64,000 nucleotides of DNA from Bacteroidota bacterium (GTDB lineage: Bacteria; Bacteroidota; Bacteroidia; CAILMK01; JACPUW01), in assembly GCA_016192035.1 (NCBI GenBank), contig JACPUW010000041.1, positions 1 to 64,000 of the forward strand, written 5' to 3'. The notes beneath the pieces were generated by a model that saw only the letters and a list, made by a program, of their open reading frames with translations, searched no databases and had not been told where the DNA came from. Positions within the stretch are counted from its first letter, which is position 1, and every line of letters begins with the position of its first letter. Below are positions 53,788 to 63,682 of this stretch, in pieces. The translations under genes and the position numbers were made by a program.

Positions 53788-56700
53788 TTATTGATCAAAA
53801 ATCTTTTCATCTTCCATTTCCCTAAAGGCCGATTCCACCATATGTGGTTGGGGTTTGGATCCAGTCCATAGCCATGATATATAGGTTTTTATCCTATTGA
53901 ATAATAGCAGCCAGGCGGGAAGCAGCAATAAGGTAGTGATGGTAGAAACCAAAAGTCCATACCCCACAGAAATGGCCATGGGGACCAAGAACTGGGCCTG
54001 GAAGCTTTTATTGAGGATAAGCGGCCCCAACCCGGCAATGGTGGTGATGGAAGTGAGCAAAATGGGCCGGAAGCGCGAAAGTCCGGCTTCGCGAATGGCT
54101 TCCATGTACCCGAGTCCTTTTTTTAAGTTGTTATTTACCACGGTCACAAATACCAGGCTGTCGTTTACCATGACCCCTATGAGGGCAATGATACCAAACC
54201 CGCTAAGCATGGAAATCTGTGCGCCGTGCAGGTAGTGCCCCCAGGCCACCCCAATGAGCCCAAAGGGAACCACGACATACACCGCAATGGACTGAGAGAA
54301 ACTGCGGAAAGTGAACACTATGAGTGCGAACATGATGACGAGGACAACGGGCATAACCTTTTTCATGCTGGTGGCCACCTTTTCGTTTTGGCGGCTTTGG
54401 CCTTCAAAGGAGTACTGTATCCCGGGGTATTTTGACAAGATGGGCGGCAGTACTTGGTCTTCTATCTCGGCATTAATGTCGGCAGTAGAAGCCCTAAAGT
54501 CGGCCACATCGGCTTCTACCCTTGCCTCGCGCATACCGTCCAGGTGGTTAATGGACATTACCCCGCGCACTATTTCCAGCTGTACGAGTTCGCGGAGGGG
54601 AATTTTCTGGCCTGATGGAGTCTGTATGCGCATATCGAGCATGCGGTCCACACTGCCGCGGTCTGTTTCCGTGTATCGTACCCATATTTTCACCTCGTCT
54701 TCACCGCGCTGTAGGCGCTGTACCTCAGCCCCAAAGAATCCGGCCCGTACCTGGGCTAGCACGTCTTGAAGCTGCAGGCCAAGCACCAATGCCTGTTCTT
54801 TTAGGCTAACGTTTACTTCCCTAAGCCCGGGTTGGTCGGCCAGGGCTACGTCTTTGAGTGTGGCCATTTGCTGAAGTGAATCCAGCAGTTCCTTTTTGGC
54901 TTTGTCAAGTACTTGTACGTCAAATCCCTTTAGGGAGATGGACACGGCTTTGCCAAATGCGGCGGCCACCCCAAAACTCACGTTTTCCGCGCCGTAAACC
55001 ACGCCTGATTTTTCACGAATCATATTGGCTATGTCAAAACTCACGGCCGTGCGCGATTCGCCATCAATGAGGCTCACGCCAACGGTGCCCTGGTGGGTGC
55101 CAGGTCCCAGTTTTATCTGCACACCTTGAATTTCTGAGACATCGTCGCCGCGTTGGGCTTTTATGTCCTCATTCACCTGCCATACCGCATTTTCTATATG
55201 TTTGAGCCATCCTTCGGTTATGTGTTCGCGGGTGCCTGAGGGCATTTTAAGTACCACATCCAGGTCGTTGCGCTCTATGCTGGGAAAGAAAGTGGTTTTG
55301 ACAATACCGCCACCAATGGCGCCCATGGTAAGGAGCAATAGGGAAGTGAAAAACAACAGGGTGAAGCCCCAATGCCTGATGGAGAACTCAAACACGGGTT
55401 TGAAATACTTGTCGCGCAGTTTGTTAAACCAGGTGGTGGTAAACTTGGCAAATCGGTCTTGTGGGCGGTCTTTTTTTAAGGCCTTGGAGTGGGCCACGTG
55501 GGCAGGCAGGAGCAGGGCACCTTCTATCAATGAGAACAGTAGGGAGGTAATGACCACGAAGGCCATGTTAGGGGCAAATTCGCCTAGGCGACCGTCAAGA
55601 AAGAAAAAGGCCCCAAAAGCAGCCACCGTGGTAAGCACCGATGAAACAACGGCGGGAAATACCTCGAGCGTGCCTGTGATGGCAGCCTCCAAGGGGGCCA
55701 TGCCCTCCTCATATTTCTGGTATATGTTTTCGCTTATCACTATGCCATCGTCCACCAAAATGCCCACCACGAGGATCATGCCGAAGAGTGATATCACATT
55801 GATAGACAAACCATAAAATCCGGCCAAGATAAACATCCCCGCAAAGGATACGGGTATGCCCAGGGCTACCCAGAATGCCAATCGGCGGTCGAGAAAGAGG
55901 GCCAAGATGACCAATACCAAGATGGCGCCCATAAGGCCGTTTTCTGTGAGCAATTCAATGCGTTGGCGCAGGGTAACCGAACCATCGCGCACTATTTCGG
56001 CCTGTACTACGGTATTGCGCTGGTTAAAATCTTCTATATACCCGTATAGGTAGTTGTTGATTGACAGGATGTCTTCGGCTAGGGTGTTTTCTATGGTTAC
56101 TACCACGGCCGGTTTGCCGTTGTACCAGTTGCGCGCTGGGGAGTCGCTCCACTTGTCGCGCACCTGGGCCACCTGGCCCAGCCTGACCAACGTACCGTTG
56201 GCATTTGATTTAATTACCACATCCTTAAGTCCTTCGGCGTAGTATGCCTTGCCCTTTCCCCTTACCAATAGTTCTTCGTAAGGCCCTTTTATGGTTCCCC
56301 CGGTTATGTCAACATTGGCCTTTTTTAGCGCCGTTACCAGTTCGGCGAATGTGAGGTTATACGCCCTCAGTTGATCTTCATTTATGGATACTTCTATTTC
56401 TTCATCGGGGAAACCGCTGATGGAAACCTTGGAAATGCCGTGGCCAGCCGGCCGGTCATTCCAAAGCTTAAACTTTCTCAGCACGTTGAAAAAGCTTTCA
56501 AAAGCGGGAACCTTCTTGAGATTGTTCACAGCCCGGAGTTCAGCCTCCATCTGTTGTGCCTTTTTCTTGAGCGTGATCAAGTCCACCTCGCCGCTCAGGG
56601 CTATGCTCATGGCAAAATTTAGCCTTTCGGCAATGAATACCACGGGCGGTTCCATGTCGGGTGGGAAAGAAGCGATCTTGTCCACGGCATTTTTCACATC

Positions 56701-57021
56701 GTCCAGTACTTCATCGGTATTAACCCCGCGCAGCACTTCTACCGTCAACAGGCCTCCGTTTTCGTTAGAAATGGATGATACCCGCTCCAACCCGGTAATT
56801 CCCTTTAGGTTGTCTTCTATCTTAAGCATTACGCCTTCTTCCACCTCTTCAGGTGATGCCCCTGGATACACCACCTGAATATTAATGATTTTGCTTTCGG
56901 CCTCGGGGAAAAGGGTGGACCGCAATCCGGTCATGCCAAAGAACCCGAACACCATGGTGAGGAATAATATGGTGTTGCCCAGTACAGGGTATTTCAGGAA
57001 ATAGGTTATAAGCGATCTCAT
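53788..57021 (-). CDS. RND efflux pump (AcrB/hydrophobe-amphiphile efflux type)
   Basis: 1077-aa inner-membrane proton-driven pump with 12 transmembrane segments and two large periplasmic loops. Features: the N-terminal TM1 GNTILFLTMVFGFFGMTGLR, the porter domain with VVYPGASPEEVEEGV, TM4 with the proton-relay Asp pair (GILVDDGIVISENIY), and a second half with GFGIIALIGVMVNDSLVFV. The subtype carrying ISGFPDEE is common in Bacteroidota. Between residues ~164 and ~192 (56437-56525) a stretch ending KLWNDRPAGHG interrupts the usual run from ELRA to ISKVSISG, apparently an in-frame insertion. It is 50 bases downstream of the membrane fusion gene. Confidence 0.92.
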   Translation of the reverse strand: MRSLITYFLKYPVLGNTILFLTMVFGFFGMTGLRSTLFPEAESKIINIQVVYPGASPEEVEEGVMLKIEDNLKGITGLERVSSISNENGGLLTVEVLRGVNTDEVLDDVKNAVDKIASFPPDMEPPVVFIAERLNFAMSIALSGEVDLITLKKKAQQMEAELRAVNNLKKVPAFESFFNVLRKFKLWNDRPAGHGISKVSISGFPDEEIEVSINEDQLRAYNLTFAELVTALKKANVDITGGTIKGPYEELLVRGKGKAYYAEGLKDVVIKSNANGTLVRLGQVAQVRDKWSDSPARNWYNGKPAVVVTIENTLAEDILSINNYLYGYIEDFNQRNTVVQAEIVRDGSVTLRQRIELLTENGLMGAILVLVILALFLDRRLAFWVALGIPVSFAGMFILAGFYGLSINVISLFGMILVVGILVDDGIVISENIYQKYEEGMAPLEAAITGTLEVFPAVVSSVLTTVAAFGAFFFLDGRLGEFAPNMAFVVITSLLFSLIEGALLLPAHVAHSKALKKDRPQDRFAKFTTTWFNKLRDKYFKPVFEFSIRHWGFTLLFFTSLLLLTMGAIGGGIVKTTFFPSIERNDLDVVLKMPSGTREHITEGWLKHIENAVWQVNEDIKAQRGDDVSEIQGVQIKLGPGTHQGTVGVSLIDGESRTAVSFDIANMIREKSGVVYGAENVSFGVAAAFGKAVSISLKGFDVQVLDKAKKELLDSLQQMATLKDVALADQPGLREVNVSLKEQALVLGLQLQDVLAQVRAGFFGAEVQRLQRGEDEVKIWVRYTETDRGSVDRMLDMRIQTPSGQKIPLRELVQLEIVRGVMSINHLDGMREARVEADVADFRASTADINAEIEDQVLPPILSKYPGIQYSFEGQSRQNEKVATSMKKVMPVVLVIMFALIVFTFRSFSQSIAVYVVVPFGLIGVAWGHYLHGAQISMLSGFGIIALIGVMVNDSLVFVTVVNNNLKKGLGYMEAIREAGLSRFRPILLTSITTIAGLGPLILNKSFQAQFLVPMAISVGYGLLVSTITTLLLLPAWLLLFNRIKTYISWLWTGSKPQPHMVESAFREMEDEKIFDQ
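56437..56525. other. Probable in-frame insertion of about 28 residues in the RND pump
   Basis: Encodes a stretch ending FKLWNDRPAGHG placed between MEAELRAVNN and ISKVSISGFPDEE. In relatives I recall, these run on with only a few residues between them. Read on the plus strand, this stretch is also open without a stop and gives KLKLSQHVEKAFKSGNLLEI. No flanking direct repeat is obvious by eye. Confidence 0.45.
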
Positions 57022-57071
57022 TGGGGTAACAATATGATATTGAAGGAATAAATATACAAGTCCTTACACCC

Positions 57072-58196
57072 CTATCGGGAAAGGGTTTGGTCTGAAATGC
57101 CCACCGGGGTGCCAGTCTGCGCCCCGTCAAACACGGTGCGCAGGAGCTTGTCGCCATTGGCCAAGTCAGCGGTGAGCACTTCGTCAAGGCCAAGAAACTG
57201 GGGGATGATTTTTTTGGCTTCAAGTACCCCATCGCGGATGATAAATATTTCGCCCTTGTCGTTCAACTGGTTCTTGGAAATGGCAAATACTTGGGTAAAA
57301 GTTTCGGTGAACACATACCCGTTGAGGTACATGCCTTCCTTTAGGCTTGTGGACGATACTTCCAGTATCACCTTGCCGTTTTGAGAGTTAGGGTCCAGGG
57401 CCCGGCTTATCCTCACCACACTGGCGGGAAACTCTTCACCGGTTTGTGGGGATGCAAGCACCCCTTTGGCGCCTACTTTCACGAAACTAAGAAAGGCCAC
57501 ATCCACCGGGGCTTCCATTTCATAGGTAGCCAGGCCGCTGTATTCGCCAAGCTTTTGTCCGGCCCTTACCAGGGTTCCTGGTTTGATGAGTGCTTGGGTT
57601 ACGCTGCCCGAAAAGGGCGCAGCTATTTGGTACTTGGCCAGCTTGGCCTCCTGGCTTTTTATTGAATAGTATTGATTGTAAATGCCTTGCGTGCTCAAAT
57701 AGTACTTTTCTCCCGATTGGATGTCCGGCAGAGGAGGTAGGTTGGCGGCCATGTCAAACGCGTCGGCATAGGCTTTCCACAGCGGGAAGGCAGTTGGGTA
57801 ATCCAATTTCAAGTCGGGTAGCACACGGGTGATGAGGCTCAGGAAGTTGCTTTTGAGTGACTGCACGTTGAGCAGCAATTCGGTGTTGTCCATGGCAAGC
57901 AAAATTTCGCCCCTGGCAAAGGTGTTTCCTTCCTTAAATCTTGATGCACTGGTCAATAGATTGCCGCTAACCTCGGCATAGAGTTCTACCTTTTCTTTGG
58001 CTACCAGTTTGCCGGTCACCGGTATATGGGCAGCCAGGTCTTTGTTTTCAACTTCTATGTACTCCACGGAGCGCACCGTAGGCATAGGGGGCTTGCGGTC
58101 GCTGGGGCTTTTGAGGCCTGATAGGTAGCGCATACCCATGATGCCTATGATAAAAATGGCAATGCCGGTCAGGATGACGAATTGTCTTCGTTTCAT
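57072..58196 (-). CDS. Membrane fusion protein (HlyD family) of the RND pump
   Basis: 374-aa periplasmic adaptor. N-terminal anchor (FVILTGIAIFIIGIMGM), then beta-barrel, lipoyl and hairpin parts: IPVTGKLVAKEKVELYAEVSG, ILLAMDNTELLLN, a helical hairpin around 115-185, and the second lipoyl half AKYQIAAPFSGSVTQALIKPG. The C-terminal MacA-like domain has VRISRALDPNSQNGKVILEV. It links the RND pump to TolC. Its ATG overlaps the stop of the MarR gene by four bases; the pump gene follows after 50. Confidence 0.92.
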   Translation of the reverse strand: MKRRQFVILTGIAIFIIGIMGMRYLSGLKSPSDRKPPMPTVRSVEYIEVENKDLAAHIPVTGKLVAKEKVELYAEVSGNLLTSASRFKEGNTFARGEILLAMDNTELLLNVQSLKSNFLSLITRVLPDLKLDYPTAFPLWKAYADAFDMAANLPPLPDIQSGEKYYLSTQGIYNQYYSIKSQEAKLAKYQIAAPFSGSVTQALIKPGTLVRAGQKLGEYSGLATYEMEAPVDVAFLSFVKVGAKGVLASPQTGEEFPASVVRISRALDPNSQNGKVILEVSSTSLKEGMYLNGYVFTETFTQVFAISKNQLNDKGEIFIIRDGVLEAKKIIPQFLGLDEVLTADLANGDKLLRTVFDGAQTGTPVGISDQTLSR

Positions 58197-58666
58197 GTGG
58201 TTGATATTATAGAGTTACCATTGTTAATGAATGCCATGAGTACTTTTCGGGCTATTTCAAGGTCCTGTGGGTCTATGTCCTTGGTAAGGGATTCGTGGGT
58301 TTTTACCACACATTCAATAAGGGTAGGCATCACCGCCTGGCCCTTGGGGGTGATGCTTAGCAGCCTGTTCCTTCTATCGTTTGGGTCTATTTCTTGATGT
58401 ATCCAGCCCCACTTTACCAAGTCACCCACCGCGCGGGTTACCCTGGTTTTGTCGCCCTGCATAAAACCCACCACCTCTACCTGGCGCAGGCAGTTATCAG
58501 CAAAGAAATGGGTCTTGGCCATGATAAACCAATGATTCTTGTTTATTTCCAATCCATTGGCCTTGAAGCTAAGCTGTATGCTGGCCGAAGCGGCCCTAAA
58601 GGCATGCGCTATGAGATAGCCCAGGGAGCGGTGTATGTCAAATTGATCTGCCAAAATTGATGGCAA
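58193..58666 (-). CDS. MarR family repressor of the efflux operon
   Basis: 157-aa winged-helix regulator. The HTH/wing region QVEVVGFMQGDKTRVTRAVGDLVKWGWIHQEIDPNDRR, read in parts, contains TRVTRAVGDLVKWGW (recognition helix) and NDRRNRLLSITPKG (wing). MarR proteins release DNA when small phenolic or other ligands bind. No ATG is available: the frame is closed upstream by TAA, and the choices are TTG 58666 or TTG 58654 (153 aa). A -7 box TACATTTG covers 58664-58671, which favours TTG 58654. Heads the MarR-HlyD-RND-TolC transcript, overlapping the next gene by ATGA, and most likely represses it. Confidence 0.88.
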   Translation of the reverse strand: MPSILADQFDIHRSLGYLIAHAFRAASASIQLSFKANGLEINKNHWFIMAKTHFFADNCLRQVEVVGFMQGDKTRVTRAVGDLVKWGWIHQEIDPNDRRNRLLSITPKGQAVMPTLIECVVKTHESLTKDIDPQDLEIARKVLMAFINNGNSIISTT

Positions 58667-58694
58667 ATGTAATAGTTACAATTGCAACCATAAA
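58664..58694 (-). promoter_or_regulatory. Efflux operon promoter with palindromic operator
   Basis: On the minus strand TTTA (58691-58694), 19 bases and TACATTTG (58664-58671) fit a Bacteroidota promoter. The spacer holds GTTACAATTGCAAC (58675-58688), palindromic except at positions 4 and 11, a good place for MarR to block transcription. Confidence 0.55.
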
Positions 58695-58781
58695 CTGCGA
58701 TTTGGCCATTCTGTTTGGTTTGATAGGATAATTTAACAAACCATGATGGAAAATGAAGTTGTTAATAAGCGGTAAGCCAGA

Positions 58782-59780
58782 CTATGGCCTGGACAAATCA
58801 GGATTGGTCAAGAACGACTCATCCGTGAGGGTGTGCAAAAACGCCACCAGTGCTGCCATATCATCGGGGTCAAGGGCCACGCCGCCTTTATGGGCCTGCT
58901 TCATGAGCGGGTCTATATTGTCTTGGTTGATAACCCCATAGCTATAGAAATCAATCACTTCTTCCAGGGTTTCAAACCGTCCGTCGTGCATATATGGGCC
59001 AGTGAGTGCCACGTTTCTCAGGGTGGGGGTTTTAAACTTGCCCAGGTCGGCTGGATTTTTGGTCACCACGTAGTATCCCTTGTCATGCTCGGTGGGATAT
59101 TCTACCATAAGGCCGGTATTGTGCACGAGATTATCCTTGAACAATGGCGCACTGTGGCAGTGAAAACAATCGCCCAGTTCAGAAAAAAAGATCAATTCGC
59201 CCCTTCGCTCCTCTGTGGTAAGCGTGGTTTCCTTGCGTATATATTGGTCATACTTGGCATTATATGAATTCATGGTTTTAAAAAATTGGGCCAGGGCATA
59301 GGCCACGTGTTTTGACTCTATTTGGTCCACACAAAAGGCATCCTTAAATAGGGCCATATAGTCGGTCGATGCGTTGAGTTTGGCCAGGTCGGTCTTAAAA
59401 AACTCATTGACTTCAAACATCATGGCATCCTCAATACTGCCTTGTATGCTTCCGTTCCATAGGTACAGGTGGTCAAACCCCAGGTTCACGTGGGGCAGCA
59501 CTATGGCATCAGATGAAAAGGATTTCTCCTGAAGGTGGCAGGATGAGCAAGACTGTTTTCCTTCGGGGTGGAGTATGGGGTCATAATACAATTTGCGGCC
59601 CAGTGCTATGCCCTTATCGGTGAGCTGATTTTCGGGGTGTTCAGGTACTTTGGGAAAACCCGGGTGGTTCACCTCAATGGTCACCGGCATGGGTGTTTCA
59701 CATTCGGTTTCAGGTGGGATACAGGCTGATAGGCCTGTAAACAGGGCCAATATGGCCACTAATCCAAGCGCTCTTCCCAT
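58782..59780 (-). CDS. MbnH/MauG-type di-heme cytochrome c peroxidase-family lipoprotein
   Basis: 332-aa exported lipoprotein (lipobox GLSAC, Cys20). Two c-type heme sites: Cys78-Ser-Ser-Cys81-His82 and Cys205-Phe-His-Cys208-His209, in the bacterial di-heme peroxidase fold, with FKTPTLRNVALTGPYMHDGRF near the high-potential heme (Met264/His265). In methanotrophs the same family, MbnH, oxidises a tryptophan of its partner MbnP to kynurenine. The MbnP homologue lies directly upstream and overlaps by 22 bases, so this is MbnH-like rather than a plain peroxide-detoxifying peroxidase. It is the last gene before the MarR operon. Confidence 0.85.
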   Translation of the reverse strand: MGRALGLVAILALFTGLSACIPPETECETPMPVTIEVNHPGFPKVPEHPENQLTDKGIALGRKLYYDPILHPEGKQSCSSCHLQEKSFSSDAIVLPHVNLGFDHLYLWNGSIQGSIEDAMMFEVNEFFKTDLAKLNASTDYMALFKDAFCVDQIESKHVAYALAQFFKTMNSYNAKYDQYIRKETTLTTEERRGELIFFSELGDCFHCHSAPLFKDNLVHNTGLMVEYPTEHDKGYYVVTKNPADLGKFKTPTLRNVALTGPYMHDGRFETLEEVIDFYSYGVINQDNIDPLMKQAHKGGVALDPDDMAALVAFLHTLTDESFLTNPDLSRP

Positions 59781-60604
59781 GTCTTGATAAGTTTAAATAC
59801 ATCGTTCATGCCGTTTTTGCGCAGCAGGGCCTGTGCCTCGTGGTTCATCATGATCCCCTCACCGTAATCTTCCATATTGTACGGTTTTTCACCGGTAAAC
59901 CATCCATCCAGGTCCATGGCCACTTCCATATGGAAGTTCACCGCGCCCACGTCCTTTCCATCCAGGGGCAGTGTAAGGGTAAACATGGGGTCGGTGCTGC
60001 CCATTGAGTTGACCAATCTGCCCATGTGAATGTTGTAGTTGTGCATCTCGGCATCAAGCCCTAAAAATTTCCCTTCAAATTTCATGTAATGGTATCCCCC
60101 GCCCATGGGCGTAGGCCACTGCATATTGATGTGTTCGGTAGTAGCAGGTAGCGCATAGTCCTTGTTTAGGTCGCCCCTCATGCCAAAAACAAAGGTGAGG
60201 GAATCAATTTTGCCTTGTGCCACATGTTTCTTGGTTAGGGTCATGGTAGCGGGCGCTGAGGCGTCAAAATAATGATATTCAGCTATTTCTTCTGAAAGGC
60301 CGCCTTGGTAATGCGCAGTGATTTCTGATAGGTAAAACAGTACCCGCTCTACCTTATAGGCGTTTGCTGCGGAATTGGTGTAAGAGCCCGTTCCCAATTC
60401 CAAATCTTCATCGGCCACCTTCATCTTTAAGTCAAGGGTGAGGTAACTTTTTATATCGCAGCTGCCATCGTCCTTTTCGGCAGATTCTTCATAGTTCACA
60501 GCATTGGGGTTGGTGCAGCCTTTTTCCTTGCAACTGCTTAATTGAAATATACTTATGCTAAGGAGAGCCATGAGGGTGGGGCGGGCAATTCCGATTTTGT
60601 TCAT
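59759..60604 (-). CDS. MbnP-like copper protein, exported lipoprotein
   Basis: 281-aa lipoprotein (signal peptide with lipobox LSSC, Cys25). A short Cys-bounded module GCTNPNAVNYEESAEKDDGSC, residues 29-49, precedes the MbnP-like beta domain: AYKVERVLFYLSEI, FVFGMRGDLN, EHINMQWPTPMGGGYHYMKFEG with Trp163 and His172, and MEVAMDLDGWF. MbnP proteins bind copper, in part through a kynurenine made from Trp by MbnH. Several His (158, 172, 188, 193, 225) and Trp163 are candidate ligands. I used ATG 60604, which opens the signal peptide. It overlaps the di-heme gene by 22 bases. Confidence 0.8.
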   Translation of the reverse strand: MNKIGIARPTLMALLSISIFQLSSCKEKGCTNPNAVNYEESAEKDDGSCDIKSYLTLDLKMKVADEDLELGTGSYTNSAANAYKVERVLFYLSEITAHYQGGLSEEIAEYHYFDASAPATMTLTKKHVAQGKIDSLTFVFGMRGDLNKDYALPATTEHINMQWPTPMGGGYHYMKFEGKFLGLDAEMHNYNIHMGRLVNSMGSTDPMFTLTLPLDGKDVGAVNFHMEVAMDLDGWFTGEKPYNMEDYGEGIMMNHEAQALLRKNGMNDVFKLIKTWEERLD

Positions 60605-60726
60605 GGGAGTTTGTTTTAATGGGGTCAAAAATCGGATATAGGTAACTTTAATGTTGGTGACTTAGGTCATTTATCAACTATCAATAAAAGGGGAGTGCGG
60701 TTGAGGTGGACAAAATGAGGCTAGGC

Positions 60727-62190
60727 TCAGGTTATGGAAGGCCCGTCCGCCGCTGCCCGAAGGCGCAATTGCCCGTAGATGGACATGGCTTCGGGATGCG
60801 AAGCTTCCCACTCCAACTGGCCCTGATATTTTTCCGGTGGTTTTTCCCTGGGCACAATATGCGCCTTGGCCAATGACTGCACCATGGTCAATGGCAAATC
60901 AAGGTGCGATGAAATGGTGCGGAGGGTCTTGGGATGATGCGCTATAAAGTCTTCAAAATCAACAAAAGCCACCCTTTCAGGTGGGTTTTGAAGCAGGATG
61001 CCCCCATACACATACTGCCAGTATTCCACCCAAAAGCCCAGGTTGCCGGTATTTTTTTTCCATTGCTTGTCATGAACAAACCCAGGCTTTTTCATCCCCA
61101 GGCCAAAAAACTGTTGGCCTATGTGGTCCATGTACTTGAGTACAAAAGGATCCCGGCGCTGCATGTTTGAAAAGTGCCGGTGCTGGCGAAGCAGGCTTTG
61201 GGCCTGGTGGTATGGGTGCCTAAACATGACCAATATCATAGCACCTGAATAGGCATTGGTCAATGCAGGTATCCTAAACACATGGGCGTTGTTTTTTGAC
61301 AAATACCTATTGGCATGTTGTCCCCGGGCGTGTGCGACCCTAAAAAAGTGGTCTTGCAGCCTTTCAATGGTTTGGGGTTTCAACTTATGGTCAGCGGGCA
61401 GGAATTCGTTGTTGTACTGGCCCAGGCCTTCCTTGCTAAGTAGGTGTCTAAAAACAACTTCATCAAGTGCTTCGGGGCTTGATTGCGAAATATGCACCCC
61501 ATCTCGGTGCCAGCGCTCCAAGGGTGCCTTATAAGATCTGAAAGAATGTGAAAAGCGTTTCCATAGCAGCGGTATGGGCACAAAAGGCATATCGGCGTAT
61601 GTGTGGGAAGCGAACAAATTGGTGGCGTGGAGCAATTGAAGCATGGCGGTGGTGCCAGCCCTGGGCATGCCACAGATAAACACAGGAAAATCCTTGGTAT
61701 CCAATTTTATAGGACGGGCCTTGTCCATTTTCCAATCCGCCTTGTATAAATCCATTTGCAGGTGAGTGGTGGCAAAGGCCAGGCGGTGAAACCATCGATC
61801 AAACGTGGAATAGCCCTTGCGGGGTTTGGCCATGTAGATGATAAGTATGGCCAGGGCGGTGCTGCCTATGATAAAATGCAGGGATGCCATGAGGCCAAAC
61901 ACGCCAGATATATCTACTTGGACTAGTGCCGACAAGGCAAATAGCATGACCAGGGCCAGGGCGGTGGCAAGAAAGAGTTTGACCGTTAACCTAAAGAAGG
62001 TGCTGATAAGGATTTTGGCAGCTTGCCGTGAGAAATCTTCCTTTTCCTTATCGCTGGCGGTGTTATTGGTCAGTATGTTGACCGATTTCCTAGCTGTGTC
62101 AAAGGCCGAGGTGGCAAGCGGAACAAGGTGCATCCTGGCCAGTGCCAAGAGAAACGCTGCCATGCTTAGGGCAGCTACCAGGTAGGTCAT
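60727..62190 (-). CDS. Membrane-anchored PAPS-dependent sulfotransferase family protein
   Basis: 487-aa protein. The N-terminal 125 residues hold three hydrophobic segments (about 2-20, 70-92, 98-120) with a charged cytosolic loop. The rest is a sulfotransferase domain: 5'-PSB loop ICGMPRAGTTAML (about 172-184), SSPEALDEVVFRHL, the 3'-phosphate region FRHPYHQAQSLLRQH and FVDFEDF. Family members move sulfate from PAPS to hydroxyl or amine groups; the acceptor, likely a lipid or glycan at the membrane, is unknown. ATG overlaps the stop of the small membrane gene (ATGA), so it is the last member of a coupled operon. Confidence 0.82.
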   Translation of the reverse strand: MTYLVAALSMAAFLLALARMHLVPLATSAFDTARKSVNILTNNTASDKEKEDFSRQAAKILISTFFRLTVKLFLATALALVMLFALSALVQVDISGVFGLMASLHFIIGSTALAILIIYMAKPRKGYSTFDRWFHRLAFATTHLQMDLYKADWKMDKARPIKLDTKDFPVFICGMPRAGTTAMLQLLHATNLFASHTYADMPFVPIPLLWKRFSHSFRSYKAPLERWHRDGVHISQSSPEALDEVVFRHLLSKEGLGQYNNEFLPADHKLKPQTIERLQDHFFRVAHARGQHANRYLSKNNAHVFRIPALTNAYSGAMILVMFRHPYHQAQSLLRQHRHFSNMQRRDPFVLKYMDHIGQQFFGLGMKKPGFVHDKQWKKNTGNLGFWVEYWQYVYGGILLQNPPERVAFVDFEDFIAHHPKTLRTISSHLDLPLTMVQSLAKAHIVPREKPPEKYQGQLEWEASHPEAMSIYGQLRLRAAADGPSIT

Positions 62191-62411
62191 GGGTTGGATG
62201 GGCCTGTGGGGTTGTCTTTCTTTTTCTTAAGTGCCGAAAGCAGCCGCTTGATGGGATACCACACAAAGCCTACTAGGGCCAGGAGTATGGCGGCCAATAG
62301 GGCTAAAAAGGCCCCAACGGCCGATAAGCCGCCACCGGGGCCAATATAACCTGAAGCGCTCACTGTGAGCATGATAAAGAAAAGGCAAAAGGTGAAGGGT
62401 AGATGCTTCAT
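62187..62411 (-). CDS. Small membrane protein of the sulfotransferase operon
   Basis: 74 aa: an N-terminal signal-like segment (LPFTFCLFFIMLTVSASG), the phrase YIGPGGGLSAVGAFLALLAAILLAL forming a second helix read in pieces, then WYPIKRLLSALKKKK with a basic tail. I recall similar YIGPG...WYPIKRL proteins next to sulfotransferase or nucleotide pyrophosphatase genes. Function unknown; a membrane partner is plausible. Overlaps the ASST gene by one base and the sulfotransferase by four. Confidence 0.75.
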   Translation of the reverse strand: MKHLPFTFCLFFIMLTVSASGYIGPGGGLSAVGAFLALLAAILLALVGFVWYPIKRLLSALKKKKDNPTGPSNP

Positions 62412-63682
62412 CAGGGTGAGTCGCTGGGCAAGGTGTCAAAAGTAGAATGAATGGGGAGCTTAAGCACCCGTGCATCGAGCAACTTTCCCCGAGCACCGCT
62501 GGGAAGGTAGTAATTATGTGCCCATACCACCTTTTGTTCCTTGGATACCACATAAGTCCTGCCTGCATGTGGGTTTGTAATAAGTACAAAATAGGGCACT
62601 AACCATTGTAAACGCCCCATAGTCATGCAATAACTCGAATCTATAAAATTAGTGAAAAGCGTATTGTTCATGGCATTAATTGTTATGATACGTGTGGTTG
62701 GTTCTGATGGGTCAGCCCCCACGAATCTGTTGTCAAATACACTAATCCGATTTCCATCAATAAAATCCGGGTCGTGCTGACGGGTAAAATGCCCGGAACT
62801 AAAGTACTTAATTGTGCTGTCAAGGGTGTTGAAAACAAAAATGGCATTGGCATTACGTAAGGATACCAGGATATCGAAACGATTGAACCTTCCGGTGGTA
62901 TCATCTATAACATAAGGATCCGCATCATTCACATGGTATCTATCATTGTGATAATCGGGAAATTCAGGATAGGCCAATCCATGGAATTGGTTGCGCTGCA
63001 ATAATTCTGTAAGTGACCAATATTGTAAGATATTACCGTTGGTGTCGAGTTTAAGTATGGACTGGTCTATCCAGGGATTTGCAGGGGAACCAGGGTTAAC
63101 CTTTTCGGCGCCACAGGTCCAGATGTTTCCATCTAGGTCCAGTTCCATGGAGTGGTGGCTTTTAATTGACTTAAACCAGACAATCTCCCCGTCAGGCTGC
63201 ATGCGCACCATTGCCAGGTTTTCCAGATTGAACACCAGGTCGCCACACGGCAACAGGGCCATGCCATGCACAAAAAGTCGCTCTTCTTCTACGGATGTTC
63301 GCCAGTTCAGCCGTTCTGGATCGCTATCCCACCGGGCCTTTAGTGCATGGACATCCAATAACCATCGGTGCCAAATACGGCCATCAAAATCAATAACCAC
63401 GATTTCCACGTCCCAATTTTCAGTATGCCGCGCCAAAAGCAATTTCATTTCAAACGGTTCACCGGATGAATAGATAGGTAGCTCCCATCTAGGGTTTTTG
63501 GGAAACGATGGGCCCGGCTTCCATAACTCCATTAGGGTATGCCATCCCTCATTGGCCATGGAAATCAGGCTATATGGAAATACCTTATAGGAGGCAGTAA
63601 TAAACCCATATCCAAAGAGAAGCATGCCCAAGGATGCAAAAAAACACCATTTGGCCCAGGGTTTTCGGGGCATTATGTTCAT
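62411..63682 (-). CDS. Arylsulfotransferase (ASST)-like beta-propeller protein
   Basis: 423-aa protein with an N-terminal transmembrane anchor (about 12-30). The body has the repeated DxDGxI-W and D-NGNI-Y strands of six-bladed ASST propellers (VIDFDGRIWHRWL, RMQPDGEIVWFKS, LDLDGNIWTCG, KLDTNGNILQYWSL), and SHHSMELDLDGN with a His pair in the region of the ASST sulfate-accepting His. ASSTs move sulfate between phenolic donors without PAPS; here the activity is inferred from fold only. Its start overlaps the stop of a second, edge-cut ASST-like gene by four bases (ATGA). Confidence 0.7.
   Translation of the reverse strand: MNIMPRKPWAKWCFFASLGMLLFGYGFITASYKVFPYSLISMANEGWHTLMELWKPGPSFPKNPRWELPIYSSGEPFEMKLLLARHTENWDVEIVVIDFDGRIWHRWLLDVHALKARWDSDPERLNWRTSVEEERLFVHGMALLPCGDLVFNLENLAMVRMQPDGEIVWFKSIKSHHSMELDLDGNIWTCGAEKVNPGSPANPWIDQSILKLDTNGNILQYWSLTELLQRNQFHGLAYPEFPDYHNDRYHVNDADPYVIDDTTGRFNRFDILVSLRNANAIFVFNTLDSTIKYFSSGHFTRQHDPDFIDGNRISVFDNRFVGADPSEPTTRIITINAMNNTLFTNFIDSSYCMTMGRLQWLVPYFVLITNPHAGRTYVVSKEQKVVWAHNYYLPSGARGKLLDARVLKLPIHSTFDTLPSDSP

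Follow-up and report, generated by a model that had tools for sequence, protein, structure and literature searches.

The locus considered here raises the question of whether a two-gene unit resembling the MbnP/MbnH pairs of methanotrophs encodes a copper protein whose Trp is converted to kynurenine by its partner, and whether this would occur at the usual site. The window, that is, the whole stretch analysed, comprises 64,000 nt of a Bacteroidota bacterium (GCA_016192035.1, contig JACPUW010000041.1, positions 1-64,000, forward strand). On the minus strand, where all of the gene and protein features located below also lie, an MbnP-like lipoprotein gene (59759..60604; 281 aa, ATG start at 60604) is followed by an MbnH-like di-heme enzyme gene (58782..59780; 332 aa), the ORF coordinates giving an overlap of exactly 22 bp (59759..59780). 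The coordinates, sequence, 22-base overlap, and two CxxCH sites given in an earlier note on this DNA all proved correct on checking the ORFs. By eye, both proteins have an N-terminal lipobox, LSAC in the enzyme (C20) and LSSC in MbnP, where it closes the signal peptide at the lipid-attached Cys25 (60530..60604), a residue invariant among 30 aligned relatives. A promoter and terminator scan around the pair returned nothing beyond chance.

The di-heme protein matches CCP_MauG (Pfam) at 93 bits and its best NCBIfam model is TIGR04039 (“MbnH family”), with a score of 197 bits against a cut-off of 363; in the comparison with MauG, TIGR03791 scores 121 against a cut-off of 444. Its best PDB relative is MbnH (6e1c), with an E value of 8e-43 for the protein alone and 5e-82 with a small profile. 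It contains heme-binding motifs CSSCH (residues 78-82, 59535..59549) and CFHCH (residues 205-209, 59154..59168), a counterpart of the CCP/MauG inter-heme Trp (W108, 59457..59459; Trp in 99/102 partner enzymes), and a counterpart of the MauG Tyr heme ligand (Y263 in GPYMHDG, 58992..58994; Tyr in 93 of the 101 partner enzymes that align at this position). The PYMHDG-type Tyr motif is also present in 6e1c, and together with the adjacent MbnP gene these are the features expected of an MbnH. Absent is a distal loop of ∼14 residues (RNxxxxxN) that 6e1c shares with most enzymes paired to ordinary MbnPs.

The partner protein matches the MbnP family PF20243 at 72.4 bits (Pfam cut-off 27) over residues 53-247 (59864..60448), with no match to the strict MbnP model TIGR04052 or to any NCBIfam family at E<=0.01. 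We call the pair divergent because the MbnH falls below its cut-off and the MbnP is without a match in the strict TIGR models. The two genes very probably form an MbnP/MbnH-type pair. A PDB search with the single window MbnP returned no match, the PDB match of the MxWP profile (the motif subtype described below) was dismissed as chance, and a predicted structure of the protein alone was set aside as unusable (pLDDT 44). Viral contigs scanned for members of the alignment contained no relatives.

The location of such a pair outside a methanobactin locus is not new: a 2013 paper (PMC3621798) already described MbnP/MbnH pairs far from these loci, and sampling of the host's class recovered PF20243 in 297 of 395 genomes. 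The identity that the earlier note gave to the genes is supported (PF20243, 6e1c), but most of the novelty that it implied is lost to the 2013 report and to the recurrence of the Cys-bounded module described below. A whole-genome search with PF05114 identified no MbnB homologue in the host, ruling out a methanobactin locus remnant. A second pair is present on another contig of the host genome (G000 C23, L001:365-3379). Its MbnH and MbnP genes are adjacent, its motif is the ordinary NMNWTW (MxWxW), and SCO1/SenC follows downstream of this MbnP after one intervening 148-aa gene that matches no Pfam family. The observation that no copper gene adjoins holds for the window pair, but the second pair has this SCO1/SenC gene two genes from its MbnP. 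A further CCP/MauG-type di-heme gene occurs about 7.7 kb past the window end (L124:7736-8797, C38), with a thioredoxin-like ORF on the opposite strand; the whole-genome PF20243 search placed no MbnP there. Elsewhere the genome contains a clade II NosZ. NirK was not found in the host, leaving a copper nitrite reductase unsupported as a client.

We collected 113 MbnP proteins, comprising 56 of the MxWP type (the window protein included), 15 with WxWP or WxVP, and 42 that we term canonical; the first two groups make up the 71 WP-type proteins. Most canonical proteins have MxWxW. In its place the window protein has MxWPxxMGGGYH, and its motif NMQWPTPMGGGY retains the first Trp with MxW but is missing the second Trp of the full WxW. 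W163 is found within HINMQWPTPMGGGYHYMKFEG. One protein counted among the 56 (L121) reads MAWGMGSGGYH. Five residues are invariant across the MxWP proteins: M161 and W163 (M161-x-W163, 60116..60124), the candidate copper-ligand Met and candidate Trp for kynurenine; H172 (60089..60091), H193 (60026..60028), and M252 near the C-terminus (59849..59851), all candidate ligands. H193 and M161 supply the His after and the Met before the motif that are usual in MbnP, and His at 193 is shared by all 71 WP-type and 40 of the 42 canonical proteins. H172 and M252 are clade-specific; the former, an extra His in GGGYH, is present in 71/71 WP-type and 0/42 canonical proteins, and the latter is Met in 71/71 WP-type proteins, whereas of the canonical proteins 7/42 have Met at this position and 16/42 have His. 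The His-rich block that had been noted around Trp163 is therefore borne out for H172 and H193 (56/56) but not for H158 and H188, which are not conserved. The Kyn(Trp)-x-His arrangement of MopE and CorA is absent, the second residue after W163 being Thr (WPT) and the next His H172. The window MbnP apparently represents an undescribed motif subtype in which part of the usual site is missing.

A co-directional di-heme gene adjoins 70 of the 71 WP-type MbnP genes, and the single exception sits on a short contig stretch; the pairing exceeds chance. In two MbnPs without an adjoining di-heme gene (L022 and L023), both MxW and the His have degenerated. For five canonical MbnPs with MxWxW intact, no di-heme gene lies closer than about 10 kb, indicating that the motif is not strictly dependent on a linked enzyme.

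The Cys-bounded module GCTNPNAVNYEESAEKDDGSC (residues 29-49, 60458..60520) had been singled out as a notable fusion to a copper protein. A pattern search for GCTxPxAxN(Y/F) located one site in the host genome, in this MbnP, but GCTxPxAxNYx(n)DDGxC also separates the lipobox from the domain in some ten further MbnPs of the class, of both WP and canonical types, so the fusion is not unique. A scan of genome contigs had one find, an unrelated protein (L014) that also bears the module. The module reads as a common spacer and not as a copper feature.

The MxWP tree comprises clade I, which includes the window protein and has WxWP inside it, and the larger clade II. A NorB-like, NorC-like, RIC, or NarK gene is found within about 10 kb in 23 of 43 loci (clade II together with four MxWP loci that have no clade assignment) versus none of 46 other MbnP loci (26 canonical, 11 WxWP, and 9 clade I; Fisher p 8e-10, treating loci as independent despite their shared ancestry). 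NosZ is near MbnP in three clade II loci, and in six NorB is within 300 bp of MbnP and co-directional, an arrangement which suggests that the clade II NorB-like and MbnP genes are co-transcribed. The distance between the NorB-like gene and an MxWP-type MbnP on the same strand is 38-281 bp in L150, L155, L163, L167, L168, and L177 (around 8-12 kb). In the PDB, the NorB-like protein best matches nitric oxide reductase subunit B (3o0r), and the RIC, NarK, and NosZ assignments were checked with NCBIfam. A literature search of partial coverage returned no paper on a link between MbnP/MbnH and NorB, NorC, RIC, or NarK genes. None of NorB/NorC, RIC, NarK, and NosZ is beside the window pair, which is instead flanked by a MarR-like gene, HlyD/AcrB-type efflux genes, and two sulfotransferase-like genes. 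The order across 53788-63682 of the window (RND permease, HlyD adaptor, MarR-like, MbnH, MbnP, sulfotransferase, arylsulfotransferase-like) is kept in a congeneric genome (L126).

Canonical and WxWP pairs have neighbors of their own. A predicted protein of ∼340 aa with a CDxC start is encoded near 19/26 canonical and 10/11 WxWP pairs and at 0/53 MxWP loci; examples of this predicted exported protein (L198:11477-12484, L131:10283-11323), present at 29 of the 37 canonical and WxWP loci, begin ACDxCxC and have no Pfam match. Similarly, a small Cys-rich protein is found near 11/26 canonical and 8/11 WxWP pairs and at none of the 53 MxWP loci. Representatives occurring with canonical and WxWP pairs (L192:9142-9510, L086:7690-8082) are ∼125 aa in length, contain CVNxDKPExxCxGxCHxxKQ, have no Pfam match, and are possibly small metal-binding proteins. 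SCO1 is near four canonical pairs in addition to the host paralogue.

Whether W163 is the modified residue depends on alignment register. According to work by Manesis in 2021, MbnH reportedly modifies the first Trp of WxW, and copper is ligated by His and Met; we take the first Trp of MxWxW to be the one turned into kynurenine in methanotroph MbnP. Both MAFFT and hhalign align M161-x-W163 on the part of canonical MxWxW that runs from the Met to the first Trp; the canonical motif in turn falls on GMAWNW of the solved MbnP 7l6g when the canonical profile is used. The proposal in the earlier note required a Trp at the modified position, and in both alignments W163 occupies it. The WxWP proteins give a conflicting register, however, since hhalign aligns their WxW on canonical WxW, while against MxWP their first Trp falls on M161; the three pairwise registers cannot all hold. 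With this conflict and with Val at W163 in two WxWP members, the modified residue may be one other than W163. The two members in question (L122:5018-5917, L123:4978-5742) have Val for the second Trp (SWDVP, SWNVP) and a changed HxGT motif, and as natural variants could be used to test which Trp is modified.

The register conflict leads to an alternative that keeps the pair and its copper protein but puts M161 where kynurenine is formed in other MbnPs. W163 would then correspond to the second, structural Trp, and MbnH would either target another conserved Trp, W235, or make no kynurenine at all. The alignment of WxWP with canonical MbnP would put M161 at the modified position, the overall spacing between flanking conserved residues leaves the register unfixed, and W235 is shared by 70/71 WP-type proteins, against 4/42 canonical ones. 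Against this, MxW is unchanged from canonical to MxWP proteins, and WxWP is nested inside MxWP when the motif columns are removed (enclosing-branch support of 98 and 95 in two trees; 100% of bootstrap trees for the 49-row set), so that Met-161 is the more parsimonious ancestral state and W163 is more likely to be homologous to the first Trp. MxWP monophyly, which allows WxWP to be ancestral, is not rejected by the AU test (p 0.30, or p 0.21 for the 49-row set), and WxWP shares canonical-type neighbors, so the equivalence of W163 is probable but unproven. On balance we regard this alternative as unlikely, though a serious contender, and W163 as a reasonably good candidate for the kynurenine precursor.

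In a more distant alternative, the pair would serve in oxidative or nitrosative stress, the di-heme protein being either a peroxidase or an NO/redox protein and MbnP an accompanying lipoprotein with no function in copper handling. The enzyme is indeed related to CCP/MauG and its distal loop is altered, relatives of the pair are found with NorB/NorC/RIC genes, and no copper gene adjoins the window pair. We consider this improbable in view of the Tyr at the sixth-ligand position, the greater similarity to MbnH than to CCP, and the fact that the enzyme is so strictly paired with an MbnP whose Met/Trp/His set is conserved.

We favor, with moderate confidence, a maturation pair: MbnH would oxidize W163, and the copper ligands of MbnP would include M161 and H193 (and possibly H172 or M252). 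Both proteins would be made as lipoproteins on the periplasmic side, and MbnH would draw on its two hemes and an oxidant of the peroxide type to remove electrons from Trp163, giving kynurenine. Kynurenine would then complete a copper(I) site with M161 and H193, probably with H172 and/or M252. Mature MbnP may hold copper outside the cytoplasm for cuproenzymes, the host having a clade II nitrous-oxide reductase. The sequences themselves establish the gene pair, its linkage in many genomes, the two families, and the conserved residues; Trp163 as the target, kynurenine, copper, the ligands, and the role are inferences from these. This maturation reading is consistent with SCO1 near the paralogous MbnP and the four canonical pairs, with the host NosZ, with the kynurenine-containing copper sites of MopE and CorA, and with the degeneration seen in L022 and L023; the incomplete WxW, the WxWP register, the shortfall of both proteins in the strict TIGR models, the five canonical MbnPs without a linked enzyme, and the lack of an adjoining copper gene argue against it. 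Copper binding by the window MbnP, taken separately, is fairly likely.

More speculatively, and with considerable doubt, WP-type MbnP/MbnH may be a functionally distinct branch with a rebuilt copper site (M161, W163/kynurenine, H172, H193, M252) and an MbnH with a remodelled distal pocket, of which one large clade was recruited to nitrogen-oxide respiration (NorB/NorC, RIC, NarK, NosZ), supplying copper under anoxia or shielding the site from NO. The clade II neighborhood points to a concrete, testable role in copper handling during NO/N2O respiration. Should the variant site prove real, it would be a test of how much of the MbnP motif kynurenine formation requires, the second Trp then being dispensable, and would extend protein-bound kynurenine past methanotroph copper uptake to a subtype found in many genomes of the class.

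The closest characterized system is that of 7l6g (MbnP) and 6e1c (MbnH), which we take to be from Methylosinus trichosporium OB3b. Like the OB3b pair, the window pair is a two-gene unit with a PF20243 protein containing M-x-W...H and a CCP/MauG-type enzyme with two CxxCH, the inter-heme Trp, and the PYMHDG Tyr. Unlike OB3b MbnP, the window protein has no second Trp of WxW and adds the GGGYH His, the C-terminal Met, and the Cys module; unlike OB3b MbnH, its partner is without the RNxxxxxN loop, falls below the TIGR04039 cut-off, and is unaccompanied by methanobactin genes. The host's second pair resembles the window pair in its adjacent MbnH and MbnP genes and PF20243 domain but differs in having MxWxW, a long-loop MbnH, and SCO1/SenC two genes from MbnP. 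The CorA/CorB and MopE/SACCP systems of methanotrophs likewise combine a copper protein with a di-heme CCP-like gene, in similar co-transcribed two-gene systems whose secreted or surface copper proteins have kynurenine in the copper site (PMC3912023). MbnP is not markedly similar to MopE or CorA (PMC3621798), and the CorA ligands (Kyn62-x-His64 and His114) are unlike those proposed for the window MbnP. A broader likeness is to MauG and methylamine dehydrogenase, in which a di-heme enzyme also oxidizes Trp of a partner protein, the product in that case being TTQ.
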